Assembly: GCF_014874065.1 (NCBI RefSeq) | Contig: NZ_JADBEE010000002.1 | Coordinates: forward strand, 667,166-731,165 | DNA length: 64,000 nt | DNA from: Nesterenkonia halotolerans | GTDB lineage: Bacteria; Actinomycetota; Actinomycetes; Actinomycetales; Micrococcaceae | Reading direction: 5' to 3' | Part shown: positions 10,573-42,990 of the stretch, piece after piece | Layout: each line of letters begins with the position of its first letter | How positions within the stretch are numbered: position 1 is the stretch's first letter | Position numbers and translations under genes: made by a program | Notes under the pieces: model-generated | What the model was told of the DNA's origin: nothing | The model's input: only the letters and a program-made list of their open reading frames with translations | Database searches by the model: none

Positions 10573-10723
10573 GCATGAACATCCGGTGGACCACCTTGTG
10601 TGAACTACCGCTGAGACGCCAGCAGTACTAGCCTGACCACGTGAGGTCTCATCCCAGGGGGAGAGGACCAACCGGTTCTTCTGTGAGGCCAGCCATGGTC
10701 GCCAACCACAGAGAAGAGTTGCG

Positions 10724-12934
10724 ATGAACGACATCCACATCCCAGGAGCACCCCAGGCCGAACCGCCGGCCGCAGAGCAGCCGGTGAAGCCCCGTGGACC
10801 GCTGCCTCCGAAGCAGGATCAGCGTGCTGCAGCGCCGGTCAGCCCGACCGGCGCCGAGGTGCCCGGCAGCGACGCGGGCCGGGCCCAGCAGGGCGAGTAC
10901 CTGACCACCGCCCAGGGTGCCCGAGTCCGCGACACCGACCACTCGCTGAAGGCCGGCAGCCGAGGCCCGGTCCTGCTGCAGGACCACCACCTGCGCGAGA
11001 AGATCATGCATTTCGACCATGAGCGCATCCCGGAGCGCGTGGTCCACGCTCGTGGTGCCGCGGCGCACGGAATCTTCGAGTCCTACGGCACCGCTGGCCA
11101 CCTCACCCAGGCGAAGTTCCTGGCAGAGAAGACCACCACCAAGGTGTTCACCCGGTTCTCCACGGTGCTGGGCAGCCGCGGCTCCGCGGACACGGTCCGC
11201 GACACCCGTGGCTTCTCCACCAAGTTCTACACCGAAGAGGGCAACTACGACCTCGTCGGCAACAACATCCCGGTGTTCTTCATCCAGGACGCGATCAAGT
11301 TCCCCGACATCATCCACGCGGGCAAGCCGCATCCGGACCGGGAGATCCCGCAGGCCCAGAGCGCCCACGACACCTTCTGGGACTTCGTCTCGCTGCACAC
11401 CGAAGCGCAGCATCACACCATTTGGAACATGTCCGACCGCGGCATCCCGCGCTCGCTGCGCATGATGGAAGGCTTCGGGGTCCACACCTTCCGGCTGGTC
11501 AACGCCGAGGGTGGGTCCTCGCTGGTGAAGTTCCACTGGAAGCCCAAGCTCGGCGTGCACTCCATCACCTGGGAAGAGGCGCTGATGACCAACGGCGTGG
11601 ACCCGGACTTCCACCGCCGGGACCTCGCCGACGCCATCGAGGCCGGAGCGTTCCCGGAATGGGAGCTCGGCGTGCAGGTCTTCCCGGACAGCGAAGATCA
11701 GATGTTCCATGGCATCGACCTGCTCGACCCCACCAAGTTCGTGCCCGAGGAGCTCGCCGAGGTGCAGATGCTCGGCAAGATGACCCTGAACGCCAATCCG
11801 CAGAACTACTTCGCGGAGACCGAGCAGGTGGCCTTTCACCCCGGCCACCTGGTTCCCGGCATCGAGGTCACCAACGATCCGCTGCTGCAGGGCCGGCTCT
11901 TCTCCTACCTGGACACGCAGATCACCCGTCTGGGGGGCCCGAACTTCGCCCAGATCCCGATCAACCGGCCGCACGCACCGGTCAACGACATGCTCCGCGA
12001 CGGCTACCACCAGACCGCGGACCATGCCGGCGTCGCCCCGTACCACCCGAACTCCTTCGACGGGGGCAACCCGTACCCGGTCAAGGACATCGAGGAGTCC
12101 GCAAGTGCGCCCAGCGCGCTGATCGACTTCCCGGAGCCGGTGTCCGAGAGCGTGAAGATCCGCGAGAGCCCGCAGAGCTTCGATGACCACTACACCCAGG
12201 TCACGATGTTCTACCGCAGCCTCACGCGCACCGAGCAGCTGCACGTGATCCAGGCGTACACCTTCGAGCTCGGCAAGTGCTACGAGCCGGTGATCAAGGA
12301 GCGCCAGCTGCAGCAGCTCACGCACATCGATGCAGACCTCGCGGCGGGCGTGGCCGAGGGTCTCGGGCTTCCCGTGCCGGAGCCGCTGCAGGCGCCGGTC
12401 GAGCCCGAGGTGCTCAGCCCCGTGCTCTCCCAGCTGGGCCAGACCTGGCCCATCGAGGGTCGGCTGGTCGGCGTCGTCGTCGATGAGTCCACCGACGTCG
12501 CAGCGGTCCAGAAGGTCCGCAAGGCCATCGACGGGCAGGACATGGTGCCGCTGGTGGTCGCCCCCACCGGTGCGCCGCTCTCCGACGGCACGCCGCCGCA
12601 GCGCACGTACCTGACCGCACGCTCGATCGAGTTCGACGCGATCGTGTTCCTCACCGCCTCTGCTGCCGGCGCCGCCGGGGACTCGCCCGACGGCGATCAC
12701 AAGCTCGGCGATCCGACCGGGGATCCGCAGGTCGATCCACGGCTGACGCTGATGGCGGCTGAGGCCTACCGGCACGGCAAGGCAGTGGTCTTCACCGATG
12801 GCTCCCCGCTGCTGAGCGCGAGCGGCGTCTCCACCAGTGCGCCGGGCGTGCTCGTCGGCACACCGGAGAAGCTCACGGATGAGCTGTTCACGCTCATGGG
12901 CGCGCACCGCGCCTGGGAGCGCTTCGCCGCCTGA
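10724..12934 (+). CDS. katE: Large-subunit (clade 2) catalase
   Basis: This 736-residue cytoplasmic catalase disproportionates hydrogen peroxide. The N-terminal arm is Pro-rich. The core has [16 protein letters not shown] with the distal catalytic His, [27 protein letters not shown] substrate-channel sequence, [11 protein letters not shown] with the catalytic Asn, and the proximal haem tyrosine in [11 protein letters not shown]-terminal DJ-1/class I amidotransferase-like domain (about 580-736) marks the large-subunit clade. A possible -10, TACTAG, lies at 10626-10631, which would give a leader of nearly 90 bases. The length is normal for HPII-type enzymes. Confidence 0.95.
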
Positions 12935-28990: not shown

Positions 28991-31537
28991 ATGCGCATTC
29001 CGCTTTCTTGGATTCGTGAGTACACCCAGTTCCCCGCCGAGGGCACCGCAGAAGATCTGATGGCCGAGCTGGTCAAGGTCGGACTCGAGGAAGAGGACGT
29101 CCACCGTCCCACCGACTTCCTCAGCGGCCCGATCGTCGTCGGCGAGGTGCTGGAGAAGATCCTCGAGCCGCAGTCCAACGGCAAGACCATCAACTGGTGC
29201 CAGGTCCGCGTGGTGCCCGAGGGCTCCGCCCAGACCCTGACCCAGGAGGGCATCGACCCCTCCGGCGTGCAGGGCATCGTCTGCGGCGCGCACAACTTCG
29301 AGGTCGGGGACAAGGTCGTGGTCACCCTTCCCGGCGCCGTGCTGCCCGGTGACTTCCGCATCGCCGCGCGCAAGACCTACGGGCACGTCTCCGCCGGGAT
29401 GATCGCCTCGGTGCGCGAGCTCGGCATCGGCGAGGACCATGACGGCATCCTGGTGCTCTCCACGCTGGGCCTCGACCCCGCGGTCGGCGCCGACGCCATG
29501 GAGCTGCTGGGTCTCTACGACTCCGCCGCCGAGATCAACGTGACCCCGGACCGCGGCTATGCGTTCTCGCTGCGCGGCGTGGCTCGCGAATACTCCCACG
29601 CCACCGGCACGCCGTTCATCGATCCTGCCGAGCAGATCACCACCGACGACGACGCCGCCCGGCCCGGTCTCGAGGTCAGCCTCAGCGATCAGGCCCCGAT
29701 CTACGGGGTGGACGGCTGCACCCGGTTCGTCACCCGCAAGGTCACCGGCATCGACCCGGAGGCGCCCACCCCGCCGTGGATGGCTTCACGGCTCCGGCTG
29801 GCCGGGATGCGTTCGATCAGCATCGCGGTGGACGTGTCCAACTACGTGATGCTCGAACTGGGTCAGCCCAACCACTGCTACGACGCGGCCAAGCTCGACG
29901 GCGGCATCCAGGTCCGCCGTGCCGCGGCAGGGGAGAAGCTCATCACCCTGGATGAGAAGGAACGCAGCCTGCACGCCGAGGATCTGGTGATCGCCGATGC
30001 GCGCGGTGCCATCGGGATCGCCGGAGTCATGGGCGGTGCGCGCACCGAGGTGGACGACACCACCTCCGCGGTGATCGTGGAGGCGGCGTACTTCGATCCG
30101 ATCAGCGTCAGCCGCAGCAAGCGCCGGCACAAGCTCCCCTCCGAGGCCTCCAAGCGCTTCGAGCGCGGCGTGGACCCGCAGCTTGCCCCGCTCGCGGCAC
30201 AGCGGGTCGTGGACCTGCTGGTCCAGCTCGCGGGCGGCACCGACGCGGCTGAGCTCACCGACGCCGGCACTCCGGTCCTGCCCGAGCCGATTGCGCTGGA
30301 CCCCGCTCTGCCGGAGAAGCTCACCGGCGTGGCGTACACGCAGGAGCAGATCCAGGCGACGCTGACCGCCATCGGAGCCGAGGTGACCCAGTCCGGGGAC
30401 CAGCTGCTGGTCACCCCGCCCAGCTGGCGCCCCGACCTGAGCATCCCTGCCTCCCTGGTGGAAGAGATCGCGCGGCTCATCGGCTATGACCAGATCCCCT
30501 CGCGGCTTCCCGTGCCTCCAGCAGGCAGGGGACTGACCGTCTCACAGCAGCGCCGTCGCAGCGTCTACGCCGGGCTGGCCGCCGCCGGGTTCACCGAGGT
30601 GCTCAGCTACCCGTTCTACTCCGAGGCGGCGAACACGCTGTTCGGCCGCGCGGAGGACACCGGCGAGCCGATGCCGATGCTCCGACTGGCCAACCCCATC
30701 GCGAGCCAGCATCCCGCGCTGCGGACCACGGTGCTGCCGGGGCTGCTGGAGGCCGTGCGCCGCAACGTCTCACGCGGCTTCACCGATCTCGCGCTCTTCG
30801 AGGCTGGACTGGTCTTCCTGCCCAAGGGGCAGCTGGGATCCGCGACGATTCCCGCGCTCGGCGCCTACCCCGGCGAGGACGTGCTGGCGGACCTGGATGC
30901 AGGCATCCCGGAGCAGCCGCTGCACATCGCCGCGGTGGTCTCCGGCGCAGAACCGGCCGAGCTGCCAGGTGTGGCGGGCCGGCGTCGAGACTGGGCGGAC
31001 GCCGTCGACGCCGCAGAGAAGGTTGCGGACCTGCTGCGGGTCCAGCTCGAGGTCACCCAGGGACGCCACCAGGCCTTCCACCCCGGACGGACCGCTGAAC
31101 TGCGGCTGAACGGCGTCAGGGTCGGCTACGCGGGTGAGCTGCACCCGAAGGTGATCGAGGATCAGGACCTCCCTGCCCGCACCTCGGTGATGGAGCTGGA
31201 TCTCTCCGCCCTGATCGCCGCCGCACCCGAGCAGGTCAGCGCGGCATCGATCTCGACCTTCCCGCCCACCACCCAGGATGTCTCGCTGATCGTGGCGCAG
31301 ACGCTGCCCGCGACGACCCTCGAATCCACGCTGGCCGAGGGCGCCGGGTCGCTGCTGGAGGACATCGAGCTCTTCGACGTCTACTCCGGGGAACACATCG
31401 GGGAGGGCAAGAAGTCACTCGCCTATGGTCTGCGCTTCCGCGCCAAGGACCGGACGCTCACCGCAGAGGAGGCATCCGAGGCTCGGGCCTCAGCCGTGGC
31501 GCTGGCCGTTCAGCGTCACGGGGCCGTGCAGCGCTGA
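28991..31537 (+). CDS. pheT: Phenylalanyl-tRNA synthetase beta subunit
   Basis: This 848-residue subunit contains the N-terminal tRNA-binding OB domain (IVCGAHNFEVGDKVVV near residue 96-111), the B3/B4 editing domain, the B5 domain, the catalytic-like core, and a C-terminal ferredoxin-fold anticodon-binding domain (FPPTTQDVSLIV). It edits Tyr-tRNAPhe and completes the heterotetramer with PheS. It converges on nagA, with 25 bases between stops. Confidence 0.97.
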   Translation: MRIPLSWIREYTQFPAEGTAEDLMAELVKVGLEEEDVHRPTDFLSGPIVVGEVLEKILEPQSNGKTINWCQVRVVPEGSAQTLTQEGIDPSGVQGIVCGAHNFEVGDKVVVTLPGAVLPGDFRIAARKTYGHVSAGMIASVRELGIGEDHDGILVLSTLGLDPAVGADAMELLGLYDSAAEINVTPDRGYAFSLRGVAREYSHATGTPFIDPAEQITTDDDAARPGLEVSLSDQAPIYGVDGCTRFVTRKVTGIDPEAPTPPWMASRLRLAGMRSISIAVDVSNYVMLELGQPNHCYDAAKLDGGIQVRRAAAGEKLITLDEKERSLHAEDLVIADARGAIGIAGVMGGARTEVDDTTSAVIVEAAYFDPISVSRSKRRHKLPSEASKRFERGVDPQLAPLAAQRVVDLLVQLAGGTDAAELTDAGTPVLPEPIALDPALPEKLTGVAYTQEQIQATLTAIGAEVTQSGDQLLVTPPSWRPDLSIPASLVEEIARLIGYDQIPSRLPVPPAGRGLTVSQQRRRSVYAGLAAAGFTEVLSYPFYSEAANTLFGRAEDTGEPMPMLRLANPIASQHPALRTTVLPGLLEAVRRNVSRGFTDLALFEAGLVFLPKGQLGSATIPALGAYPGEDVLADLDAGIPEQPLHIAAVVSGAEPAELPGVAGRRRDWADAVDAAEKVADLLRVQLEVTQGRHQAFHPGRTAELRLNGVRVGYAGELHPKVIEDQDLPARTSVMELDLSALIAAAPEQVSAASISTFPPTTQDVSLIVAQTLPATTLESTLAEGAGSLLEDIELFDVYSGEHIGEGKKSLAYGLRFRAKDRTLTAEEASEARASAVALAVQRHGAVQR

Positions 31538-31562
31538 CGCTGCGCAGGCGCATCCCTCCGCG

Positions 31563-32729
31563 TCATGCCCGCGCGTCATCGATCCACCCACCGCGGTGCA
31601 TCACCCGGCTCACATTCCAGGCGGAGTCCAGCAGCACCAGATCCGCACGCCCGCCCGGGAGCAGTCTGCCGGCGTCGTCGATCCCGATCATCTCGGCAGG
31701 GTTGGAGGTTGCAGCCATCAGCGCGAGCGCGGGGTCAATGCTCGAACGAAGAATGCTCTCGCGCACGGCAGCCGAGAGGGTGAGGGTAGAGCCAGCAATA
31801 GCGCCGAGGGTTCCGTCGGGCGTGACTCGTCGCGCTACGCTGTCGCGGACCTCAACATCGACCGTTCCGAGCCTGTAACGGCCGTCCGGGGCGGCGGCTC
31901 CGGGCATGGCGTCTGACACCAAGACGGGGCGCTGGGGGCCACCGTTGCGCGTCGCGTAGTCCCAGACGAAGCGGACCATCTCGGCGTCCAGGTGAACGCC
32001 GTCGCTGATCAGCTCCAGGAAAGCAGTGGGATCCTCCAGCAGGGCCAGCGCCGGGCCGGGATCTCGATGATGAAGACCCTTCATTCCGTTGAACAGATGG
32101 GTGGCAGCAGTAGCTCCCGCGGCGATCGCTTCTCGCGTCTGATCGCAGCTGGCGCCGGTGTGACCGACTCCCAGCGTGAACCCGGCGGCGCGCATCCGTG
32201 CGATCGCCTCTCCTGCCCCGTCGCGCTCGGGTGCGAGTGTCACGTACCGGATCAGGTCTCTTGCTGGGTGTCCGAGCAGAGTGGAAACGGCGTCGGGGGT
32301 CGGGGCGCTCAGCATGTCGGTCTCATGCGCCCCGCGGTGCTCCTGACTCAGCCACGGCCCTTCCAGGTGAACCCCCGCGAGTTCGCCGGAGTCCACCAGG
32401 GGGCGCAGCTCTTCGGCCTGTTCCAGGAGCACGGACACCGGAGCGCTGACCAGGGAGGCCAGCATGGTGGTCGTACCTCTTCGGCGATGAGCGGCCAGCG
32501 CCCGCTCCCCGGAAGCCGCGCCATCCGTGAAGGCGGCAGCCCCGCCACCATGAGCATGCACATCGACGAAACCAGGGGCCACCACCGCATCCGTGACGTG
32601 TTCGTCAGGACCCCGCGGAGGTCTGCCGTGCCCAGCCTCGACGATCCTCTCGTCCACGAGGCGAAGCCAATAGGGCCCCAGCGTCCCTTCGGGGGTCAGG
32701 GCAGCGTCAGCGAAGAGCACGTGATCCAT
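31563..32729 (-). CDS. nagA: N-acetylglucosamine-6-phosphate deacetylase
   Basis: This 388-residue amidohydrolase converts GlcNAc-6-P to GlcN-6-P. Metal and catalytic motifs are visible: FVDVHAHGGGAAAFTDG (HxH), GVHLEGPWLS, LGVGHTGASCD, ATHLFNGMKGLHH and VLVSDAMPG with the catalytic Asp. The ATG at 32729 has GGGAGG upstream. It is divergent from the GntR regulator and the amino-sugar operon, and the regulator probably controls both through sites in the shared gap. Confidence 0.94.
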   Translation of the reverse strand: MDHVLFADAALTPEGTLGPYWLRLVDERIVEAGHGRPPRGPDEHVTDAVVAPGFVDVHAHGGGAAAFTDGAASGERALAAHRRRGTTTMLASLVSAPVSVLLEQAEELRPLVDSGELAGVHLEGPWLSQEHRGAHETDMLSAPTPDAVSTLLGHPARDLIRYVTLAPERDGAGEAIARMRAAGFTLGVGHTGASCDQTREAIAAGATAATHLFNGMKGLHHRDPGPALALLEDPTAFLELISDGVHLDAEMVRFVWDYATRNGGPQRPVLVSDAMPGAAAPDGRYRLGTVDVEVRDSVARRVTPDGTLGAIAGSTLTLSAAVRESILRSSIDPALALMAATSNPAEMIGIDDAGRLLPGGRADLVLLDSAWNVSRVMHRGGWIDDARA

Positions 32730-32744
32730 CGGGCCTCCCGGGGC

Positions 32745-32816
32745 AGTGGTTCTTGAAGGTGTGACTCCTCACATCATCACAGCACACACAAAGTTAGTCC
32801 AGTGGTCTTGATTCTT
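32745..32816. promoter_or_regulatory. Candidate GntR (DasR/NagR-like) operators
   Basis: Two copies of a dre-like half-site occur: AGTGGTTCTTGA (32745-32756) and AGTGGTCTTGATTCTT (32801-32816). The DasR/NagR consensus is close to ACTGGTCTAGACCAGT, so only the left half matches well. Between them is a palindrome TGTGACTCCTCACA (32760-32773). The region separates nagA from the GntR operon. Confidence 0.45.
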
Positions 32817-32842
32817 GGAGTGGGCTGTGTCTCAATAGTGGC

Positions 32843-33565
32843 GTGACCAAATACCACGATGTGCGCAATCAGCTCCTGGATCGCCTGGACCAGATGTCTG
32901 CAGGAGACCCGTTCCCCCCTGAGCGAGATCTCGCTCAAGAGCTCGGTGTGTCCCGGATGACGCTTCGGCGCGCGATCGATGAGCTTGTGGCTCGTGGCGC
33001 CGTGCGTCGCCGCCACGGAGCCGGAGTTTTCGCGCTGGGCCCCAAGTTGGACCAGCCGCTGCTTGCCAGCTCATTTTCTGAGGACATGCGAGCACGGGGG
33101 CTGCGTCCAGGTGCTCGGACTCTCGCATTCGAGGTGCTGCCTGCTGGAGCTCGTTTCGGTCGTCGGCTGAACATCGAACCGTCGGACGAGATCACCCGGG
33201 TGACGCGCCTCAGGCTCGCCGATGACGAGCCCATCGCCGTGGAGGAGCTCAACGTTCCTCGACACCTGATGCCAGATCTCCTGGCAGCAGACCTGGAGGA
33301 TCGTTCCTTCTACGACCTGCTCCGCGAGCGACTGGGCATCAGCGTGCGGCGCAGCGTCCAGACCATCGAGCCCACCGTTCTCGACAGTGACGAGGCGAAA
33401 GACCTGCACGTGCCGCTGCATTCCCCCGCGTTGATGTTTGAACGCACCTCATGGGGCCCCGAAGGCCAGCCCATCGAGTTTGTGCGTTCCCTCTATCGCG
33501 GGGACCGCTACAAGATCCGGACTGAACTGAGCGTGCCGGCGATGAACGTGGAGGAGACCTCATGA
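32843..33565 (+). CDS. GntR-family (HutC subfamily) regulator of amino-sugar genes
   Basis: This 240-residue protein has an N-terminal winged helix (FPPERDLAQELGVSRMTLRRAIDELVARG, residues about 24-52) and a C-terminal UTRA effector domain. The HutC subfamily includes DasR and NagR, which respond to GlcN-6-P or GlcNAc-6-P; that effector is inferred from context. The GTG at 32843 has only the weak AATAGT (32834-32839) upstream and may be leaderless. It overlaps anmK by four bases (ATGA) and heads the operon. Confidence 0.88.
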   Translation: MTKYHDVRNQLLDRLDQMSAGDPFPPERDLAQELGVSRMTLRRAIDELVARGAVRRRHGAGVFALGPKLDQPLLASSFSEDMRARGLRPGARTLAFEVLPAGARFGRRLNIEPSDEITRVTRLRLADDEPIAVEELNVPRHLMPDLLAADLEDRSFYDLLRERLGISVRRSVQTIEPTVLDSDEAKDLHVPLHSPALMFERTSWGPEGQPIEFVRSLYRGDRYKIRTELSVPAMNVEETS

Positions 33566-34746
33566 TCGTCGCAGGACTGATGACCGGAACATCCGCTGAC
33601 GCCCTCGACGTCGCTCTGGTGGAGTTTCATCTCGACGGCCCGGCCGATCAGCCCGCCCTGAAGATGGACCTTCGTGCGTTTCAAGAAGTGCCCTTCGCCT
33701 CGGACCTCGCTCTGGACATCCTGCGCCTGTTGGAGCCCGATCCGGTGCCACTCTCGCTCGTGAGCAGCGTGGACCGCAGGCTCGGCCAGCTCTGCGCCGA
33801 TGCAGTTGCCGCGGCATGTGGACAGACGGGTCTCGAGTGTGACCTGGTCGTGTCGCACGGGCAGACCGTCCGGCACGACGTGCACGAGGGCACCGTCGAG
33901 TCGACCCTGCAGCTGGGGCAGCCGGCGTGGATCGCGGAGAGACTGGGGGTGCCAGTCCTCTCGGACCTCCGGGCTCGCGATGTGGCCGCGGGAGGCCAGG
34001 GCGCACCGCTCGCAGGGATGTTGGACCACCTTCTGCTGGTCGGTGGAGACGAGCCACGGGCGATGCTCAACCTGGGCGGCATCGCCAACGTCACCGTCGT
34101 CTCACCTCGCACCGACACCGTCGCCTTCGACACCGGCCCGGCCAACGCCCTGATCGACGTGATGGCGCGCAGAATCACCGGTGACCCCCGAGCCTTCGAT
34201 CGGGACGGCGCGATGGCAGCCCGGGGGCAGGTCGACGAGGCGCTGCTGGCAGATCTCCTGGCGGATCCCTACTACGCCCGACCGGCTCCCAAGTCCACCG
34301 GCAAGGAGCTGTTCCACGGCCCCTACCTGGACGTCCACCTCACGCGTCATCCAGGGCTGGACCCCTATGACGTGATCGCCACGCTGACCCGACTCACCGC
34401 GCGCACGGTCGCGCAGGCATGCCTCCCCCTGGGGGTGAGTGGGATCGCCGTCTCGGGAGGCGGAACGCGGAACCCGACCCTGATGGCGGAGCTGCGCGCG
34501 GAACTCGGCGCAGGGGTTCCAGTCAGCACGACCGATGAGGCCTTCGGCCTGCCCTCTGAGGCCAAGGAGGGATGCCTCATGGCGCTGCTGGGCTGGCTCA
34601 GCTGGCACGGCCTGCCGGCAACGGTTCCACGTGTCACCGGAGCAACCCACGGGACGCTCGCAGGCCGGTTCACCCCAGGGGCGGAGCCGCTCCGGCTGCC
34701 CGAACCGCTGAGCACAGGACCAGCACGGCTGAATGTCGTCAGCTGA
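33562..34746 (+). CDS. anmK: Anhydro-N-acetylmuramic acid kinase
   Basis: This 394-residue ASKHA-fold kinase both opens the 1,6-anhydro ring and phosphorylates, giving MurNAc-6-P. The motif GLMTGTSADALDVALV opens the protein, with VVSHGQTVRHD, LNLGGIANVTVVS, FDTGPANALIDVM and ISGGG-type ATP site (IAVSGGGTRNPTLM) in order. AnmK implies that anhydro-sugars from lytic transglycosylases are used. Its product feeds MurQ, encoded two genes downstream. Confidence 0.95.
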   Translation: MIVAGLMTGTSADALDVALVEFHLDGPADQPALKMDLRAFQEVPFASDLALDILRLLEPDPVPLSLVSSVDRRLGQLCADAVAAACGQTGLECDLVVSHGQTVRHDVHEGTVESTLQLGQPAWIAERLGVPVLSDLRARDVAAGGQGAPLAGMLDHLLLVGGDEPRAMLNLGGIANVTVVSPRTDTVAFDTGPANALIDVMARRITGDPRAFDRDGAMAARGQVDEALLADLLADPYYARPAPKSTGKELFHGPYLDVHLTRHPGLDPYDVIATLTRLTARTVAQACLPLGVSGIAVSGGGTRNPTLMAELRAELGAGVPVSTTDEAFGLPSEAKEGCLMALLGWLSWHGLPATVPRVTGATHGTLAGRFTPGAEPLRLPEPLSTGPARLNVVS

Positions 34747-34794
34747 GGCCACACCACTGGAAAAAAGCACCCTGATGATGGAAAGAGGAACGAC

Positions 34795-36291
34795 GTGCAG
34801 ACCATAGACCTTCTGGTGATAGTGGCGTATCTCGCCGCCACCGCCTGGCTGGGCATCAAACTGAGCGGTCGGCAGACCGGTCTCAAGGACTATTTCCTCG
34901 GGGGGCGCAACCTGCCCTGGTGGGCGGTGTGTCTCTCCGTCGTCGCAACCGAGACAAGCGCGCTCACTGTGATCGGCATCCCCGTCATGAGCTACCTGGG
35001 GGACATCTCCTACCTTCAGCTGGGACTCGGCTACATCCTGGGACGCGTGGTCGTCGCGTTCTTCATGCTGCCGCGCTACTACGACGGCGAGATGGTCACC
35101 GCCTACGCCTACCTCGGCAAGCGCTTCGGACAGAGCACACAGACCACCGCCGGCGTGACATTCCTGATCACGCGGCTCCTGGCAGACGGCATCCGCGTGC
35201 TGGCCGCCGCGATTCCACTGAAGATCATCCTCGACGGAATCGGCATCAACGCCAACTACTTCACGATCATCGTGGTGCTCGCAGTGGTCACCATCCTCTA
35301 CACCTTCATCGGCGGCATCAAGGCCGTCGTCTGGGTCGATGTGGCGCAGATGTTCCTCTACGTCGGTGGTGGCATCCTCTCCATCATCGTGATCACCTCA
35401 GCCACCGGCGGAGGCTGGTTCACAGAGGCCGCCGAGGCCGGCAAGCTGAGCCTGTTCATCTTCGAGGGCAACCCGATCTCCACCAGCGGCTCCTTCATCG
35501 CATCGCTGCTCGGCGGCGCTGTCTTCGCCATGGCCTCGCACGGTTCCGACCAGCTTGTCGTCCAGCGGCTCCTGGCCTGCCGCACCAAGGCGGAGGCACA
35601 GAAGGCCATCATCGTCTCCGGCGTCATCGTGCTGTTCCAGTTCGCCATCTTCCTGCTGGTGGGACTCGCGCTGTGGGGCTACTACGATCAGGCGACTCCT
35701 GACTCGCTGGGACTGACCCGCGATGACGAGATCTTCCCGATGTTCATCGTGGAGGGTCTGCCACCAGGCGTGACTGGACTGCTGCTCGCCGGAATCCTGG
35801 CGGCCGCCATGTCAACACTGTCCTCCTCGCTCTCCGCGCTTTCCTCCTCCACGGTCACGGACGTCTACGCGCGGCTGAAGAAGACCCCCCTCACCGACGA
35901 GCAGGGCCTCCGCGCAGGTCGCTGGGCCACCATCGGCTGGGGACTCGCGTTCATCGCTCCGGCGATGGTGTTCCGCTCCGACGAAGGCAACATCGTCGTC
36001 CTCGCGCTGGGAGTCGCCGGAATCACCTACGGCGGACTGCTGGGAGCCTTCATGTTCGGCATCATCAACAAGCGGGCCCGCGCGGCCGACGCGAACATCG
36101 CGTTCGTCTTCGCGGTCGCCGTCAATGCGTTCTTCTTCGTGATGGAGAAATATGTGGTGGGAGAAGTCTGGGTGGCGTGGCAGTGGTACCCGCTGATGGG
36201 TGTCCTGGTGACATTCGCCGTCGGGGGACTGCTCTCGCTGCGCCACTCCACCCCCGCAGCGCCGGTCCAGCTCACGGAGATGCAGCGATGA
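34795..36291 (+). CDS. Sodium:solute symporter (SSS family)
   Basis: This 498-residue membrane protein has about 13 hydrophobic segments. SSS features include DYFLGGRNLPWWAVCLSVVATE near residues 31-52, YTFIGGIKAVVWVDVAQM near 162-179, and FAMASHGSDQLVVQRLLACR. The substrate is not readable, but its place between anmK and murQ makes a free cell-wall amino sugar (MurNAc, anhMurNAc or GlcNAc) likely. The GTG at 34795 follows AAGAGGAA. It overlaps murQ by ATGA. Confidence 0.88.
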   Translation: MQTIDLLVIVAYLAATAWLGIKLSGRQTGLKDYFLGGRNLPWWAVCLSVVATETSALTVIGIPVMSYLGDISYLQLGLGYILGRVVVAFFMLPRYYDGEMVTAYAYLGKRFGQSTQTTAGVTFLITRLLADGIRVLAAAIPLKIILDGIGINANYFTIIVVLAVVTILYTFIGGIKAVVWVDVAQMFLYVGGGILSIIVITSATGGGWFTEAAEAGKLSLFIFEGNPISTSGSFIASLLGGAVFAMASHGSDQLVVQRLLACRTKAEAQKAIIVSGVIVLFQFAIFLLVGLALWGYYDQATPDSLGLTRDDEIFPMFIVEGLPPGVTGLLLAGILAAAMSTLSSSLSALSSSTVTDVYARLKKTPLTDEQGLRAGRWATIGWGLAFIAPAMVFRSDEGNIVVLALGVAGITYGGLLGAFMFGIINKRARAADANIAFVFAVAVNAFFFVMEKYVVGEVWVAWQWYPLMGVLVTFAVGGLLSLRHSTPAAPVQLTEMQR

Positions 36292-37220
36292 GCCCCAGTC
36301 CGGGGTTCACCCCCGGCGCCCTGCCCCCGACCGAGCAGCGCAATCCGCGCAGCATGAACCTCGATGACCTCCACACTCTGGAGGTCCTGCAGCTGCTCAA
36401 CACCGAGGATCGCGTGGCGGTGGATGCGGTTGCTGCGGTGCTGCCCGAGCTTACCCCCGTGGTGCACGAGGCTGCGCGGCGGCTTCGCCGAGGAGGGACG
36501 GTGCATTACTTCGGGGCAGGGACCTCGGGTCGGCTGGGAGTCCTCGACGCCAGCGAACTGATGCCCACCTTCAACCTCGAACCAGGTCGCGTCGTAGGAC
36601 ATATAGCCGGTGGATCCCAGGCCCTCGTGGAAGCCGTCGAGAATGCAGAAGACTCCATCGAATCTGGACGCGCCGATGCGAGCGGGCTGAGTTCCGATGA
36701 CCTCGCGATCGGCATCGCCTCAAGCGGCAACACTCCCTATGTGGCAGGTGCGCTGAAGGCGGCACGGGGTGCTGGCGCGTACACCGTGCTCATCTCCAGC
36801 AACCCGGATGCTCGAGTGGCGGGCCACGCGGACCAGCACCTTCTCCTGAACACCGGCCCGGAGGTCGTCACCGGCTCCACTCGGATGAAAGCAGGCACCG
36901 CGCAGAAGTTGGTGCTCAATGGATTCTCCACCGCGCTGATGATCGAACTTGGTCGCACCTGGCAGAACCTGATGGTCTCGGTGGTGGCGACCAACGCGAA
37001 ACTCCGCGAGAGGACGACCCGCATCCTGTGCGAAGCGGCGGATCTCGATGAGGCCGAGGCCGGGGCCCTGCTTGAAAGAACCGGAGGAGACCTCAAGGTG
37101 GGCATCCTCTCCGCGCTGGGGGACCTGCCCGTTGAACAAGCGGCCGAGCTGTTGGACCAGCATGCAGGTTCCGTGCGCGAGGCTCTCCGAGACCCCAGAA
37201 GTGCTGTGAGCCGTCCATGA
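36288..37220 (+). CDS. murQ: N-acetylmuramic acid 6-phosphate etherase
   Basis: About 310 residues. MurQ cleaves the lactyl ether of MurNAc-6-P to GlcNAc-6-P and D-lactate. The SIS domain shows YFGAGTSGRLGVLDASELMP (about residues 69-88) and GSTRMKAGTAQKLVLNGFST. The ATG at 36288 overlaps the symporter stop, and its own stop overlaps the kinase start (ATGA). The two products match the later genes of the operon: nagA and nagB handle GlcNAc-6-P, and the flavin dehydrogenase handles D-lactate. Confidence 0.95.
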   Translation: MSPSPGFTPGALPPTEQRNPRSMNLDDLHTLEVLQLLNTEDRVAVDAVAAVLPELTPVVHEAARRLRRGGTVHYFGAGTSGRLGVLDASELMPTFNLEPGRVVGHIAGGSQALVEAVENAEDSIESGRADASGLSSDDLAIGIASSGNTPYVAGALKAARGAGAYTVLISSNPDARVAGHADQHLLLNTGPEVVTGSTRMKAGTAQKLVLNGFSTALMIELGRTWQNLMVSVVATNAKLRERTTRILCEAADLDEAEAGALLERTGGDLKVGILSALGDLPVEQAAELLDQHAGSVREALRDPRSAVSRP

Positions 37221-38212
37221 TCCACACGGCAGAAGATCCCCGGGAGCGGCAGCTTCCTGGGGCCTTGGTGGGCCTCGACCTGGGAGGTTCGGGGAGCCGT
37301 CTTGCGGTACTGCCCTCAGGCGGAGGCCGCCGCAGAGTGTTGGACGGGCCTCGAATCGAGGTGCGTGCCGGCGGGTCCTCCGCCCCGCAGGTGATCCGCG
37401 AGATGCTCTCTCATGCCATGACGTCCTGGCCAGAGGAGACCTCGCGCCTGAGCGGAGTCGGTATCGGAGCCTCAGGGCTGGCGTCCCTGGTGCAGGACCC
37501 TCAAGAGCTGGCCGTGCAGCTGCGCGCCGAACTCGGGACGCCAACTGCCATCGCCATCGATGCAGTCACGGCCCATCTCGGCGCGCTCGGCGAGGCGGGA
37601 GGAGCAGTGGTGGCGCTGGGCACAGGTGCCATCGCGATCAGCCATCCCGGCATGGAGGCGGCGGTGGATGATCACGCCTGGCGTCGAGTCGATGGGTGGG
37701 GACACCTTCTGGGTGATCGTGGCGGTGGGGCATGGTTGGGGCGGTATGGCCTGGAAGCGGCCATGCGGGCCTACGACGGCGTCGATCCCCGTGGTCATGC
37801 TCTGCTGGCGACTGCTCGTCACCGGTTCGGTGAGCCCGAATCCTGGCCTGCTCAGCTCTACACGCGGCACGATCGGGCGGGTGTACTCGCCGAATTCGCC
37901 GCCGAGGTGGTCGCCGTCGCCGTGCGCGGCGACGAGACCGCCCGTGACCTGGTCCGTGCTGCGGGCCGCGAGGCCGCGAAGAGTGGTCTCGCGGCGCTGG
38001 GGGAGGACGTCCCAGCACAACTCGTGCTCACCGGTGGACTCGTAGGTGCCGGACCGCTGCTCAGCGAGGCCTTTGCCGAGGAAGTCGCCCACCAGCGGGC
38101 GGACGTCTTGATCGGCGAAGCCCTGGGAGATCCGTTGGAAGGCTCATTGTCTCTGGCGCGACTCCACGCAAGAGGCGTGCTGAAACCACAGGAAGGGTAC
38201 GTATGGAGCTGA
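37217..38212 (+). CDS. BadF/BadG-type amino-sugar kinase (GlcNAc or MurNAc kinase)
   Basis: This 331-residue ASKHA-fold kinase has phosphate-1 motif LVGLDLGGSGSRLAVL near residue 18-33, phosphate-2 GAVVALGTGAIAI, GWGHLLGDRGGGAWLG and adenosine motif VLTGGLVGAGPLL. It resembles N-acetylglucosamine kinases and clostridial-type MurK. With AnmK dealing with anhydro-sugar, this enzyme would phosphorylate free GlcNAc or MurNAc. It overlaps murQ by four bases and the dehydrogenase by ten. Confidence 0.85.
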   Translation: MIHTAEDPRERQLPGALVGLDLGGSGSRLAVLPSGGGRRRVLDGPRIEVRAGGSSAPQVIREMLSHAMTSWPEETSRLSGVGIGASGLASLVQDPQELAVQLRAELGTPTAIAIDAVTAHLGALGEAGGAVVALGTGAIAISHPGMEAAVDDHAWRRVDGWGHLLGDRGGGAWLGRYGLEAAMRAYDGVDPRGHALLATARHRFGEPESWPAQLYTRHDRAGVLAEFAAEVVAVAVRGDETARDLVRAAGREAAKSGLAALGEDVPAQLVLTGGLVGAGPLLSEAFAEEVAHQRADVLIGEALGDPLEGSLSLARLHARGVLKPQEGYVWS

Positions 38213-41091
38213 GAACCACCGCACCCCTGATCGACGAGCTTCGCCGTGAGCTGGGCGCCGAAAACGTGCTCGACCGTGCGATCGACCTGTATTCACGTGC
38301 TCACGATGCCTCGCACTATCTGCTGATTCCACAGGTGGTCGTGATCGCGGAGGACATCGCTTCGGTGAGCGCCGTGCTTCACCTGGCGGCCAAGCATGAC
38401 ACCTCGGTGACCTTCAGATCGGGAGGGACGAGTCTGTCCGGACAGTCCTGCGGGGCGGGCATCCAGGTCGACACCAGGCGAGGCTTTCGCGCGATCGAGG
38501 TGCTTGATGAGGGGCGCCGCGTTCGGGTCCAGCCAGGCGCCACGCTTCGCGCTGCCAACATCCGCCTGGCGCGTCATGGCCGTGCGCTAGGACCGGACCC
38601 GGCGAGCGAGGCGGCCTGCACCGTGGGCGGAGTGATCGCGAACAACTCTTCGGGCATGGCCGCGGGGATCGAGCACAACAGTGCAAAGACCCTGGAATCC
38701 ATGACGCTCGTGCTGCCCTCCGGGACAGTCGTGGACACCTCCAGAGGCGACGCCCTGGAGACTCTTCGTACGGAGGAGCCCGGACTCGTCACCGAACTTG
38801 AGGCCCTCAGGGATCAGGTTCGAGCAGATCCGTCCGCCATGACCGAGATCGCTGAACGATTCTCGATGAAGAACACGATGGGATACTCCCTCGACGCCTT
38901 CTGCCGCTGCGACGATCCGGTCCAGATGCTCCTGCAGCTCATGATCGGTTCCGAGGGGACCCTGGGATTCGTGGCCGAAGCGGTGTTCCGCACCGTGCCG
39001 GTCCACTCCCACTGTGCGACCGGACTCATGGTCTTCGACTCGCTCGACGTCGCGGCTCGTGCACTGCCCGAACTGGTCAGCACCGGGGCCAAGGCCCTGG
39101 AGCTGATGGACGCCACTTCCTTGAAGGTGGCGAGTCGAAGCCCCGAGGTCCCCGCCGTCATCGCGGACCTCACGGTAGAGGCTCACGCCGCCATTCTCGT
39201 CGAGTATCGCGCCGATTCAGCGCTCGAACTCGACCAACACCTCGCGCAAGTGGCCTCGACCCTGGAGCAGGCGACGACGACGCATCCGGTGGAGCTGACT
39301 CGAGACGCGAGTCACCGCGCGCAGCTGTGGGCAGTCCGGAAGGGACTCTACGCGGCGGTCGCGGGTGCACGCCCGCCCGGGACCATGGCTCTCCTGGAGG
39401 ACGTGGTGGTGCCCGTTCAGCACCTCGCCCGGACCTGCGAGGAGCTCTCTGCGCTGCTGGCAGACCACGGATATGTGGATCCAGTGATCTTCGGTCATGC
39501 GAAGGACGGCAACATCCACTTCATGCTGACAGAGGACACCGAAGACCCCGCGGCGCTGGAGCGATTGGCCGCCTTCACCGAGGATCTCGTGGAGCTGATT
39601 CTTCGGCAGGGGGGCAACCTCAAGGCGGAGCACGGCACGGGACGGGCAATGGCGCCGTTCATCGATCGTCAATATTCCCCGAACCTGGTCCAGGTTCTCC
39701 ACAGGATCAAGTCAGCCTGTGATCCATCGGGGGTCCTCAATCCAGGCGTGGTGCTCACTGCGGATGACAAGGCACATCTGAATCACCTCAAGCCGGTGGA
39801 TCGAGTCGATGCTGAGGTGGATCGCTGCGTCGAGTGTGGCTACTGCGAGCCGGTCTGCCCCAGCCGGGATCTCACGCTCACCCCTCGGCAGCGGATCGTC
39901 GTGCGCCGGGAGCGCGAGCGTGCGCTGGCGCGAGGGGATCGCACCCTCGTCGCCGAGCTGGATTCGCAGCAGGAGTACGACAGTCTTCAGACCTGTGCCG
40001 CCGATGGCATGTGCGCGACCGCATGCCCCGTAGGCATCGACACCGGCGCACTGGTCAAACGGCTGCGCGAGGAGAACAGGGGCCCCGCGCAGCAGCGCCT
40101 GGGGAGAATGGCTGCCCAACGATGGTCAGCCGTCACGCAGGCCGCCGGTCGTGGGCTTGATGCCGCATCGCGCATGCCGGACGCCGCCATCGCCTGGCCG
40201 AACGCCTCCGCGCGCTCGCTGTTGGGGGCCGAGACGGTGCCGCTGTGGACATCGGACCTTCCCTCCGGCGGGCGGCGCCGCAGCCGCGCGAGCGATGCCG
40301 GGGATGCTGGGCAACCTGTGTCTGCCATATTCCTGCCGAGCTGTCAGGGTGCGATGTTCGCCGCCCCGGACGGATCGCGAGGGGCGCAGTCCTCGGTCGT
40401 CGAGCTGTGCAGCATCGCGGGTCTCAACATGGTCATGCCGGAGCGGGTTGATTCACTGTGCTGCGGCACCCCATGGTCCTCCAAGGGACTTGCCGCGGGT
40501 CATGAGGCGATGGCCGAGCAGGTCCTCGACGCGGTGGATCGAACCAGGCGACTCCTCGATGATCGGGGCGATGGCCTGCTGCCCGTCGTCGTGGACGCAA
40601 GCTCCTGCGCAGAAGGTGTGGCAGCGATCATGGCTGCTGCACAGGCGGCGGGAGATCCGCGAGCAGGCCGGGTCATCGACGCCGTGAATTTCGTGGCCGA
40701 GCGCGTGCTGCCGCAGCTGGAGATCGAGCCTGGACAGCGTATCGAGTCGCTGACGCTGCATCCCACCTGCTCCACATCGAAGACTGGTGGGGAAGCAGAT
40801 CTGCTTCGTATTGCGCGGGCCGTCGCGCACCAGGTGCACGTGCCCGATGACTGGGCCTGCTGCGGGTTCGCCGGAGACCGCGGAATGCTGCATCCCGAGC
40901 TGACCGCCTCCGCGACAGCGGCCGAAGCACGCGAAGTCCAGCAGATCGATGCTGCCGCTCACGCCTCGTCCAATCGCGCGTGCGAGATCGCCATGACCCG
41001 CGCGACCGGACGCACCTACCGTCACGTGCTGGAGGTCGCCGCCGACGTCGCTGCACGGCGAACGGAACGAAGCACCCCGGCAGGACGCTGA
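38203..41091 (+). CDS. FAD- and Fe-S-dependent D-lactate dehydrogenase (Dld-II type)
   Basis: This 962-residue fused enzyme has an N-terminal FAD-binding type 4 domain (VTFRSGGTSLSGQSCG, about 68-83; TVGGVIANNSSGMAAG), an FAD-linked oxidase C-terminal domain (HAKDGNIHFMLTED; LKAEHGTGRAMAPFIDRQY), two 4Fe-4S motifs (CVECGYCEPVCP near 542; CAADGMCATACPVG near 598), and two CCG-type heterodisulfide-reductase-like modules (SLCCGTPWSS; WACCGFAGDRGML). D-2-hydroxyacid oxidation to a membrane quinone is known for the family. Placement between the amino-sugar kinase and nagB strongly suggests D-lactate from MurQ as substrate. The upstream gene overlaps it by ten bases. Confidence 0.9.
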   Translation: MELRTTAPLIDELRRELGAENVLDRAIDLYSRAHDASHYLLIPQVVVIAEDIASVSAVLHLAAKHDTSVTFRSGGTSLSGQSCGAGIQVDTRRGFRAIEVLDEGRRVRVQPGATLRAANIRLARHGRALGPDPASEAACTVGGVIANNSSGMAAGIEHNSAKTLESMTLVLPSGTVVDTSRGDALETLRTEEPGLVTELEALRDQVRADPSAMTEIAERFSMKNTMGYSLDAFCRCDDPVQMLLQLMIGSEGTLGFVAEAVFRTVPVHSHCATGLMVFDSLDVAARALPELVSTGAKALELMDATSLKVASRSPEVPAVIADLTVEAHAAILVEYRADSALELDQHLAQVASTLEQATTTHPVELTRDASHRAQLWAVRKGLYAAVAGARPPGTMALLEDVVVPVQHLARTCEELSALLADHGYVDPVIFGHAKDGNIHFMLTEDTEDPAALERLAAFTEDLVELILRQGGNLKAEHGTGRAMAPFIDRQYSPNLVQVLHRIKSACDPSGVLNPGVVLTADDKAHLNHLKPVDRVDAEVDRCVECGYCEPVCPSRDLTLTPRQRIVVRRERERALARGDRTLVAELDSQQEYDSLQTCAADGMCATACPVGIDTGALVKRLREENRGPAQQRLGRMAAQRWSAVTQAAGRGLDAASRMPDAAIAWPNASARSLLGAETVPLWTSDLPSGGRRRSRASDAGDAGQPVSAIFLPSCQGAMFAAPDGSRGAQSSVVELCSIAGLNMVMPERVDSLCCGTPWSSKGLAAGHEAMAEQVLDAVDRTRRLLDDRGDGLLPVVVDASSCAEGVAAIMAAAQAAGDPRAGRVIDAVNFVAERVLPQLEIEPGQRIESLTLHPTCSTSKTGGEADLLRIARAVAHQVHVPDDWACCGFAGDRGMLHPELTASATAAEAREVQQIDAAAHASSNRACEIAMTRATGRTYRHVLEVAADVAARRTERSTPAGR

Positions 41092-41144
41092 ATGGGACGA
41101 CTTTCACACTGCAGATCCGAAACGAGAAAAGGACGTGATTGGTG

Positions 41145-41927
41145 ATGGAGGTCATCATTGCCTCAGGTGAGCAACAGGCGAAGCTCGCCGCAGACGCGAT
41201 AGAGAAGCTGCTGCGTCGCGAGACAGACTCCACCCTTGGCCTTGCCACCGGATCGAGTCCGCTGGCGGTCTACGGGGAGCTGATTCGTCGGCATGAGCAC
41301 GAGGGGTTGTCCTTCGCGCGCGCGCGGGGCTTCATGCTGGATGAATACGTGGGGCTCCCCGCGGATCACCCGCAGCGGTATCGCAATGTGATCGCGGCGG
41401 AACTGGTGGATCGGGTGCACTGGGACGGTGAGCGGGTCCACGGTCCGGACGGGCTCGCGGCTGACATCCCAGCCGCCTGCGCAGAGTATGAGCAGGCTAT
41501 CGCTGAGGCCGGGGGAGTGGACCTCCAGCTGCTCGGCATTGGAACCGATGGTCACATCGGCTTCAACGAACCGGGCTCATCGCTGAGCTCGCGCACTCGG
41601 ATCAAGTCGCTTGCTCCGCAGACTCGCTCAGACAATGCGCGATTCTTCGGCGGTGAGCTGGACCAGGTTCCGGTGCACTGTGTGACCCAGGGGCTGGGCA
41701 CGATATCCGAGGCTCGACACCTGGTGCTCCTTGCCACCGGCAGGCACAAGGCGGAAGCCGTTCACCAGCTCGTGGAGGGCCCGATCTCGGCTCTGTGGCC
41801 GGCCACTGTGATGCAGCTGCACCCCCATGCCACGGTGCTCGTCGACGAGGCAGCGGCGTCACGGCTGCAGCTTGCCGACTATTACCGACAGACCTACGCG
41901 TCAAAACCTGGCTGGCAGGGGCTCTGA
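41145..41927 (+). CDS. nagB: Glucosamine-6-phosphate deaminase
   Basis: About 260 residues. NagB isomerises and deaminates GlcN-6-P to fructose-6-P and ammonia. Motifs are LGLATGSSPLAVYGELI, FMLDEYVGLPADHPQRYRN with catalytic Asp, and GIGTDGHIGFNEP. The start is ATG 41145 or the adjacent GTG 41142, both served by AAAAGGA at 41127-41133. It closes the amino-sugar operon and is followed by a weak hairpin. Confidence 0.94.
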   Translation: MEVIIASGEQQAKLAADAIEKLLRRETDSTLGLATGSSPLAVYGELIRRHEHEGLSFARARGFMLDEYVGLPADHPQRYRNVIAAELVDRVHWDGERVHGPDGLAADIPAACAEYEQAIAEAGGVDLQLLGIGTDGHIGFNEPGSSLSSRTRIKSLAPQTRSDNARFFGGELDQVPVHCVTQGLGTISEARHLVLLATGRHKAEAVHQLVEGPISALWPATVMQLHPHATVLVDEAAASRLQLADYYRQTYASKPGWQGL

Positions 41928-41944
41928 GCTGTTCGTCTCAGCTC
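41926..41944 (+). terminator. Short hairpin after nagB
   Basis: GAGCTG (41926-41931) pairs with CAGCTC (41939-41944) around a seven-base loop, beginning at the nagB stop codon. The stem is short and lacks a T-tract, so this is a weak call. Confidence 0.35.
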
Positions 41945-41982
41945 TCACCTGCCCCGGTCCCAGCGAGGCACGGCGGCAACCC

Positions 41983-42990
41983 TCAGGGGGTGAGCACCAG
42001 TTTTCCGGTGGTGCGCCGGTTCTCCAGGTCATCGTGCGCGCGGCCTGCGTCTTCCAGCGGGTAGCTCGCCCCGATGCTGAGCTTCAGGTCCCCGCTGGTG
42101 AGTGATTCGAAGAGCTCTGCGTAGCGCCAGGACCGCTCCTCGGCGTTGCGCAGGTACCAGTGCGTGGAGGGCCGGGTGAGGTAGAGGCCTCCCCGGCGAT
42201 TGAGATCCTGCGGATCCAGCGGGGGCACCTGACCTGATGCGCCGCCGTAGAGCACGAAGGTGCCACGGACTGCCAAGGACTCCAACGAGCCCAGGTAGGT
42301 CTCCTTGCCCACGCCGTCGAACACGGCCGCGACGCCCTCGCCCTTGGTGATCTCGTGAACCTTCTCGGCGAAGTTCTCGTAGCCGAGCACGTAGTCGGCT
42401 CCCGCAGCCTGCGCGATCTGGGCCTTCTCCTCGGTGGAGCAGGTGGTGATGACTCGGGCTCCCTTGGCCTTGAGCAGCTGGGTCAGGATCTGACCGACCC
42501 CGCCGGCTCCGGCGTGGGTCAGCACGGTCTGCCCGGGGGCGACCCGATAGGTGGAGTTCATCAGGTAGTGGGCGGTGATGCCCTGCAGCGGCAGTGCGGC
42601 GGCCTGCTCATCGGTGACCTCATCGGGCACCGCCACCGCCTTGGAGGCGTCGACCAGGAAATGCGAGGCATAGGTGCCGGTGGCGGCCTCCATGGTGGTC
42701 ACGCGCTGGCCTGCGGAGAGGCTCTCCACGGACTCGCCGACGGCAAGCACCGTTCCGGTGGCCTCGGTGCCAGGGACGAAGGGATACTCCATCGGGTAGA
42801 CGCCGCTGCGCTGGTAGGTCTCAAGGAAGTTCACACCCGCGGCGGCAGTCTCCACCAGCACCTGGTGGGGGCCGGGCTCAGGCAGGGCCACCTCGGCCGG
42901 GACGAGAACCTCTGTCCCCCCGGCCTGCGCGGCGTGCACCACTCGTGCTCTGTCCGGCAGATCCTCTGGGAAAACGCTCTGTTCATTCAT
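41983..42990 (-). CDS. NADPH:quinone reductase, zeta-crystallin type
   Basis: About 335 residues. The MDR fold without zinc cysteines shows [17 protein letters not shown] near residue 48-64, [12 protein letters not shown], and the NADPH-binding [20 protein letters not shown] near 151-170. It is a quinone oxidoreductase (QorA) type enzyme. I chose the ATG at 42990, seven bases after minus-strand TACGCT (43003-42998); the extra 35 residues of a longer frame overlap the argC promoter and look non-coding. It is divergent from argC. Confidence 0.88.

Follow-up and report, generated by a model that had tools for sequence, protein, structure and literature searches.

The window analysed here, a stretch of 64,000 nucleotides from Nesterenkonia halotolerans, carries at positions 31563-41927 eight genes, delimited by open reading frames and profile searches, in which nagA on the minus strand diverges from a plus-strand series running gntR-anmK-SSS symporter-murQ-BadF-type kinase-dld-nagB, just as the first-pass annotation of this DNA had placed them. 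The unit is flanked by what we take to be pheT on one side and, on the other, a quinone oxidoreductase gene beside argC. The divergent nagA (31563-32729) encodes a GlcNAc-6-phosphate deacetylase whose top match, TIGR00221, falls below the NCBIfam cut-off (186.9 against 225.65), and Amidohydro_1 scores above cut-off. The plus-strand series opens with a regulator of the DasR/NagR (YvoA) type (gntR, 32843-33565), comprising a GntR HTH and a UTRA domain, followed by anmK for an anhydro-MurNAc kinase (33562-34746; NF007146, 491 bits, cut-off 440) and by an SSS sodium symporter (34795-36291; sss above the superfamily cut-off), presumably for uptake of MurNAc or anhydro-MurNAc, whose nearest solved structure by sequence is 5nv9. 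The MurNAc-6-phosphate etherase gene murQ (36288-37220) is identified by TIGR00274 (306 bits, cut-off 302), and its product matches the solved structure 4s12 with an E-value of 1.3e-76. The BadF/BcrA-type amino-sugar kinase (37217-38212; BcrAD_BadFG above the Pfam cut-off), presumed to act on MurNAc or GlcNAc, scores 49 bits against the NagK model (cut-off 370) and matches solved structures weakly, namely NagK 1zc6 (E = 2.5e-11) and the MurNAc/GlcNAc kinase 8zo3 (E = 1.5e-8). Assigning this kinase to MurNAc specifically by means of the MurK positions given in the accessible part of one study (PMC10465942) was dropped, since the positions did not decide. The series ends with dld (38203-41091), which encodes a putative FAD/Fe-S D-lactate dehydrogenase of 962 amino acids, and with nagB for glucosamine-6-phosphate deaminase (41145-41927; above cut-off, with a possible alternative TTG start at 41139).

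The junctions, which had been said to overlap nearly throughout, do so in four of six cases between gntR and nagB. ATGA overlaps are present at all three junctions for which they had been claimed, gntR/anmK (33562), SSS/murQ (36288) and murQ/kinase (37217), whereas the ten bases described as lying between kinase and dld are in fact shared by the two genes (38203-38212). Gaps of 48 bases and of 47-53 bases separate anmK from the symporter gene and dld from nagB, respectively. The symporter and kinase genes are co-directional with murQ, and the unit contains enzymes for both MurQ products, as the first reading had it, with NagA and NagB for GlcNAc-6-P and Dld as the candidate for D-lactate. Neither a sigma-70-like promoter nor a terminator was found in 31530-42100, a result of low weight in this bacterial group. 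The gene order goes beyond chance, since other genera likewise have dld placed behind the kinase gene in this series.

Operator and regulator

Upstream of gntR lies the operator-like sequence AGTCCAGTGGTCTTGAT (32795-32812, plus strand), an inverted repeat around a G (GWCCA-n-TGGTC) placed 46-47 bases before the gene. In an ungapped search, the motif AG[TA]CCAnTGGTCTTGA[TA] was found at this distance from gntR in 37 of 37 loci, that is, the window itself and 36 named loci in which gntR was detected and the symporter is more than 75% identical, which belong to Nesterenkonia, Isoptericola, Paraoerskovia, Brachybacterium, Brevibacterium and a Corynebacterium MAG. The site occurs once in the window and once exactly in the whole genome, where the sole copy with one mismatch sits inside a long ORF. 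At up to two mismatches 0.23 occurrences are expected per window by chance, and such a match is present in 22 of 100 shuffled sequences, so that the weight of the operator comes from its conservation across loci and not from window statistics.

Among solved structures, the GntR protein is closest to DasR (9i0v, E = 6e-42) and YvoA (2wv0, E = 7e-38), regulators whose effectors are amino-sugar phosphates. The canonical DasR dre operator has the consensus TGGTCTAGACCA, which is absent from the window (best match 8 of 12 positions). The conserved site here, AGWCCAnTGGTCT, is a different motif, with its half-sites reversed relative to the dre consensus. As dld has no operator copy of its own in front and shares bases with the kinase gene, the D-lactate step is probably regulated together with the sugar steps, from what would be a common transcript.

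Domain structure and predicted specificity of Dld

Dld combines FAD_binding_4, FAD-oxidase_C, 4Fe-4S and CCG domains in one chain, the last of them scoring weakly (24.3 bits, cut-off 20.6). The Fe-S part comprises the motifs CxxCxxCxxxCP and CxxDxxCxxxCP as well as CCG-type cysteines; among 61 relatives, seven Fe-S cysteines are present in all 61, and Asp601 replaces one Cys in 60. Such a module appears suited to passing electrons onward. By description, the FAD and Fe-S multidomain architecture resembles that of a Pseudomonas putida D-lactate dehydrogenase, which is reportedly NAD-independent and uses a quinone acceptor (attributed to Jiang et al., 2017).

The best NCBIfam match of Dld is YdiJ, a D-2-hydroxyglutarate (D-2-HG) dehydrogenase, at 202.8 bits against an equivalog cut-off of 1350. 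When a profile of the 61 relatives was compared with solved structures, mouse LDHD came first (1.8e-45), glycolate oxidase second (1.1e-44) and human D-2-HG dehydrogenase sixth (3.1e-26). In the alignment, R379, H432, H439, E476 and H477 of Dld correspond to R347, H398, H405, E442 and H443 of LDHD, which form the metal and substrate site (subsite A), while L398 and M441 align with S365 and I407 of the side-chain pocket and A396 with A363, so that the catalytic and metal residues and the hydrophobic subsite B of D-lactate enzymes are present by sequence alignment. In the HMMER alignment the helix is interrupted by a single-residue gap, and Y383 falls opposite Y352 of LDHD, not W351; in our own reading, Y383 would stand at R+4 just as W351 does. 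Y383, A396 and L398 are found in 61 of 61 relatives, and position 441 is Met in 55 and Leu in six. In human D-2-HG dehydrogenase, K401 and N443 bind the C5 carboxylate, and the position of LDHD A363 is a Tyr in GlcD, according to the available portions of two structural papers (PMC10589216; PMC7801405). The putative oxidoreductase 3pm9 has Lys and Asn in the columns of Dld 398 and 441, and E. coli YdiJ has Arg in the latter; as read from the 3pm9 columns, the Lys and Asn of the D-2-HG type are replaced by L398 and M441 in Dld. The predicted pocket thus resembles that of a D-lactate dehydrogenase and not that of a D-2-hydroxyglutarate dehydrogenase. Some Dld relatives bear the name D-lactate dehydrogenase in databases, which is annotation only. 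Around other Dlds, lactate permease ranks second among the gene families of 34 scanned flanking ORFs (five), which speaks for a lactate function, whereas the family ranking first, GMC oxidoreductase (six), is no lactate gene and speaks against it.

Distribution of the unit and linkage of murQ and dld

A search through the symporter yielded 80 named loci, 44 of them with murQ in the locus DNA examined. Operon gene counts rest on tblastn, and gene calls were scored on third-position GC, by which some genes are missed; calling the longest ORF was rejected, as it chose wrong-strand ORFs in this GC-rich DNA. Eleven of the 44 murQ-bearing loci have dld behind the kinase gene, distributed over four genera: Nesterenkonia (5/7), Isoptericola (4/6), Paraoerskovia (1/1) and Brachybacterium squillarum (1/1). 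The gene dld was not found in the locus DNA of the other 33, which comprise all 24 loci titled Brevibacterium (one of which, L045, groups with Nesterenkonia), N. cremea and a Nesterenkonia MAG, in which the kinase gene runs directly into nagB, two Isoptericola loci with a different gene order, and five others. A replacement lactate gene after the kinase in Brevibacterium was considered and discarded: of two recurrent downstream genes that were scanned, one has no Pfam match and the other matches FAD_binding_3. On the symporter tree the distribution of dld requires six changes, three of them forced by starred branches. dld is therefore an optional module of the operon, and since it is missing from 33 of 44 murQ loci, the MurNAc pathway presumably works without it. 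Five Brachybacterium loci have the symporter and no murQ in the locus DNA examined, which makes the substrate of the symporter uncertain.

Viewed from the side of Dld, proteins with about 58-100% identity form one clade of 16 rows, with a support of 100 under both LG+G4 and LG+C20. Fifteen of the 16 lie in murQ islands, representing four families and three uptake architectures; the sixteenth is on a 5.7 kb contig, too short to tell its context. Twelve adjoin a murQ of the SSS type, and three are located in other murQ islands. Two of these (L157, from Agromyces, and L158) include a sugar ABC transporter. The third (L163) is a second kind of Nesterenkonia island, in which dld is followed by anmK and a NagZ-like GH3 gene on the other strand and then by a kinase, a NamZ exo-muramidase, a dipeptide-type ABC transporter, a different murQ and an RpiR-type regulator, with a beta-lactamase-fold protein encoded on the opposite strand at the end. 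One Dld lineage is thus seen to accompany MurNAc genes even where murQ, transporter and regulator are of other kinds. Linkage to murQ requires five gains or losses on the Dld tree, and four of these are forced by starred branches; how many of the five are gains is not told by this tree alone. The rows of the tree are a subset of the loci plus those near murQ, and not the Dlds of all 112 Dld-bearing genomes of the order-wide sample described below, so that unlinked Dlds are under-sampled. The trees do not include the dld of Nesterenkonia PF2B19 (L102), whose reading is spread over three frames, and they use L160 in trimmed form.

In an order-wide sample of 396 genomes (Dld at E <= 1e-100, murQ at E <= 1e-40, one Dld listed per genome), 112 genomes had Dld, 146 had murQ and 79 had both. 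The two genes lie within 10 kb of each other in at least 17 of these 79, compared with about 0.5 expected by random placement; 17 is a lower bound, with one extra murQ copy each in G152, G208, G233 and G278 unplaced, and the Fisher and binomial figures treat related genomes as independent and so overstate the significance. Only the kinase gene stands between dld and murQ in seven of the close pairs, whereas two are 4.3-4.5 kb and eight 5-10 kb apart; one further genome has them at 17 kb, and L163, with murQ 11 kb from dld, is likewise outside the 17. Both genes are on the same strand in 11 pairs and on opposite strands in six (G226, G205, G410, G310, G264 and G305), the latter being neighbourhoods and not operons. 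In the remaining 62 genomes with both, dld and murQ are farther apart or on separate contigs. NamZ is found beside dld in some genomes, e.g. L159. A phylum-wide sample of 396 genomes, with thresholds of E <= 1e-150 for Dld and 1e-60 for murQ, gave ten genomes with both genes, three of them within 10 kb, of which two were already in the order-wide set. The new case, L186, comes from another order and shows a dld-murQ-PTS run on one strand; the best match of its PTS protein is the MurNAc transporter MurP (5e-102; 342 bits, below the cut-off of 516). Only the seven adjacent pairs and L186 look for sure like one operon.

The first-pass annotation had suggested a search for murQ and dld in the operons of relatives, and the linkage proves to be conserved: within one Dld clade it occurs in Nesterenkonia, Isoptericola, Paraoerskovia, Brachybacterium squillarum and an Agromyces genome, and the two genes are neighbours in lineages outside that clade too. 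The link to D-lactate that had been proposed from the window draws support from the Dld clade, from the order-wide proximity and from the L186 run. That related bacteria retain this enzyme pair in gene sets of different construction suggests a functional association and not an accident.

Within Nesterenkonia, the symporter is found in 10 of 30 genomes; the closest named relative by operon is Nesterenkonia sp. Act20, with a 99% identical symporter. The genome from which the window derives has a size of 2.97 Mb. The entire nagA-nagB block is missing between pheT and the oxidoreductase gene in G011 and G022 and present there in G027 and G020, and G012 has nagA-like DNA alone at this position. The pheT of G011 is nearer to the window in DNA identity (97%) than that of G027 (94%) or G020 (84%), which would favour loss of the unit in G011. 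Recombination at the locus may nevertheless have occurred, since argC (93.3% for G011, 93.0% for G027) and the oxidoreductase gene (91.9 and 93.2%) do not support the pheT pattern. In G020 the genes of the unit are about as diverged as the flanks (80-93 versus 84%), and in G027 they are somewhat more diverged (87-95 versus 93-94%). Within the operon, it is the symporter gene that most resembles its counterparts in both genomes at the DNA level; in G020 its identity is 92.7%, while the remaining operon genes reach 79.8-87.6% and the flanks 83.7-84.4%. Transfer of the symporter gene, whose protein is 99% identical to that of G020, was not adopted as an explanation, as strong conservation fits equally well.

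A probable catabolic unit for both halves of MurNAc

The locus is very probably a catabolic unit, governed by one operator, for the amino sugars of peptidoglycan, in which Dld takes care of the D-lactate half. In this scheme MurNAc or anhydro-MurNAc would enter through the symporter and be phosphorylated by AnmK or the BadF-type kinase, and MurQ would cleave the MurNAc-6-P to GlcNAc-6-P and D-lactate. The sugar half would then pass by way of NagA and NagB to fructose-6-P, while Dld would oxidise D-lactate to pyruvate with transfer of the electrons most likely to quinone. Both halves would be turned on together when the regulator of the DasR/NagR type leaves its site, probably in response to an amino-sugar phosphate. 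The coupling of MurNAc catabolism to a D-lactate dehydrogenase gene appears real and is well supported by comparison, and the respiratory acceptor and D-lactate oxidation by Dld are predicted from the protein sequence.

Two other readings of Dld are both very unlikely in our view. In one, Dld acts on a different D-2-hydroxyacid, such as D-2-hydroxyglutarate, D-malate or glycolate, and the proximity of murQ is incidental. Its top NCBIfam match points this way, as YdiJ is described, in the part of the report available, as strictly specific for D-2-HG and inactive on D-lactate (PMC9504171). However, Dld is just 25% identical to YdiJ, the invariable Leu at 398 and Met or Leu at 441 in all 61 relatives are set against Lys and Asn in 3pm9 and Arg in YdiJ at 441, and Dld is associated with MurQ, the one operon enzyme known as a D-lactate producer. 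Glycolate, with glycolate oxidase as the second-best solved match to the Dld profile, is less well excluded, and here it is the Ala396 of the aligned pocket, where GlcD reportedly has Tyr, that would argue against it. Marginally less probable still is a general role of Dld in oxidising D-lactate from outside the cell, its place in the island being due to the joint movement of sugar-gene islands. The unit is indeed present or absent as a block, and a scan of 34 of 100 ORFs flanking other Dlds (32 loci, of which one, L149, is near murQ) found five lactate permeases and three FCD-type GntR regulators, besides six GMC oxidoreductases. Yet the operon itself has no lactate permease, the pairing is seen again beside other transporters and regulators and requires at least four gains or losses, and dld shares the common operator and the ten-base overlap with the kinase gene.

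A third possibility, unlikely but deserving far more weight than these two, is that the main role of the unit is recycling of the cell's own wall and not feeding on the walls of others, which would be compatible with Dld acting on D-lactate derived from MurQ. MurNAc recycling has been reported in Gram-positive bacteria, as far as the accessible text goes (PMC5061867), and the regulator is of the DasR/NagR type. By contrast, NagB channels the sugar into glycolysis, the lactate would be burnt by Dld, and the unit is dispensable, given its patchy presence in the genus and the absence of the whole block from G011 and G022. Because of this dispensability, feeding on walls fits better than essential recycling.

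A broader proposal, for which the case seems to us evenly balanced, is that the Dld clade is a dedicated muramate-lactate dehydrogenase lineage, and that actinobacteria have more than once brought a respiratory FAD/Fe-S D-lactate dehydrogenase into MurNAc units with SSS, ABC or PTS uptake. The lactyl ether of peptidoglycan would thereby become respiratory fuel, and removal of D-lactate on its formation would pull the reversible MurQ reaction forward.

Parts of this system have known counterparts. To our knowledge, the E. coli MurP-MurQ operon lacks a D-lactate dehydrogenase, and the fate of the D-lactate released by MurQ has seldom been followed. E. coli-type MurP-MurQ shares the MurQ chemistry, with release of GlcNAc-6-P and D-lactate, but differs in its PTS uptake with phosphorylation. 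In the MurNAc auxotroph Tannerella forsythia, a MurNAc transporter of the sodium symporter superfamily, a PF01869 kinase and MurQ form one operon, murT-murK-murQ, in the accessible part of the report (PMC5790795). The presumed use of an SSS symporter in place of a PTS, which had been singled out as notable, is thus not new in itself, being already represented by Tannerella MurT. The locus contains the same MurTKQ module of SSS, PF01869 kinase and MurQ in one operon, in the order SSS-murQ-kinase, whereas just three genes are named for Tannerella in that part of the text, with no AnmK, NagA, NagB, GntR or Dld alongside (PMC5790795). In Corynebacterium glutamicum, Dld (Cg1027) carries out quinone-dependent D-lactate oxidation, a step that an engineered strain fed with MurNAc would require, and MurNAc use is engineered; when murQ was introduced, lactate accumulated on MurNAc, and the authors, in the available text, propose raising dld (PMC6165865). 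By analogy, the Nesterenkonia operon looks like the natural form of that remedy. No report of a murQ-dld operon was found in the open-licence literature searched. The chemistry of the steps is known, and what is new is their combination, in which the breakdown of MurNAc comes with a putative respiratory D-lactate dehydrogenase of its own.

The operon thus offers a natural answer to the question of MurQ's D-lactate, with the lactate enzyme placed inside the sugar operon and behind one operator. The pair of murQ and dld would be a natural gene pair for engineered strains growing on MurNAc, in which, by the accessible account, lactate build-up occurred (PMC6165865), and operons with and without dld provide matched natural pairs for measuring the benefit of dld. 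The presence of dld would predict which bacteria burn all of MurNAc and which may excrete D-lactate.

Presence of the nagA-nagB unit between pheT and argC

Two of the compared genomes, G011 and G022, lack the entire nagA-nagB unit (window 31553-41981) as a block at the site flanked by pheT on one side and by the quinone oxidoreductase and argC genes on the other; the pheT of G011 shares 97% DNA identity with that of the window. In G027 and G020 the unit is present at this locus, as in the window, while only nagA-like DNA was found at the same spot in G012.

The D-lactate dehydrogenase and its genomic settings

The second Fe-S motif of the predicted Dld, CxxDxxCxxxCP (39994-40026, residues 598-608), carries Asp601 in place of a cysteine, and this replacement is seen in 60 of the 61 aligned relatives, whereas YdiJ of E. 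coli has a cysteine at the matching position of the alignment. Aspartate has a precedent as a cluster ligand in Pyrococcus ferredoxin. A MurNAc island of a second kind is found in another Nesterenkonia genome (L163:2979-19699). It includes NamZ, a NagZ-like GH3 and an ABC transporter of the dipeptide type; its murQ is a different one, and its Dld belongs to the same clade as that of the window. An actinobacterium of another order (8.9 Mb genome) has a run of dld, murQ and a MurP-like PTS (L186:5877-11490). In Nesterenkonia PF2B19 dld is spread over three frames (L102:8243-11252), which may reflect draft error or decay.

The symporter and the operator-like site

Five Brachybacterium loci (L065, L075, L080, L083 and L090) encode close SSS orthologues (80-84%, near 10001-11500), beside which neither murQ nor anmK was found in the locus DNA examined. 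An operator-like site, AGWCCA-n-TGGTCT (32795-32812), with half-sites of the DasR type but in reversed order, is present in all 37 loci with a detected gntR and a close SSS, the window included, across several genera.
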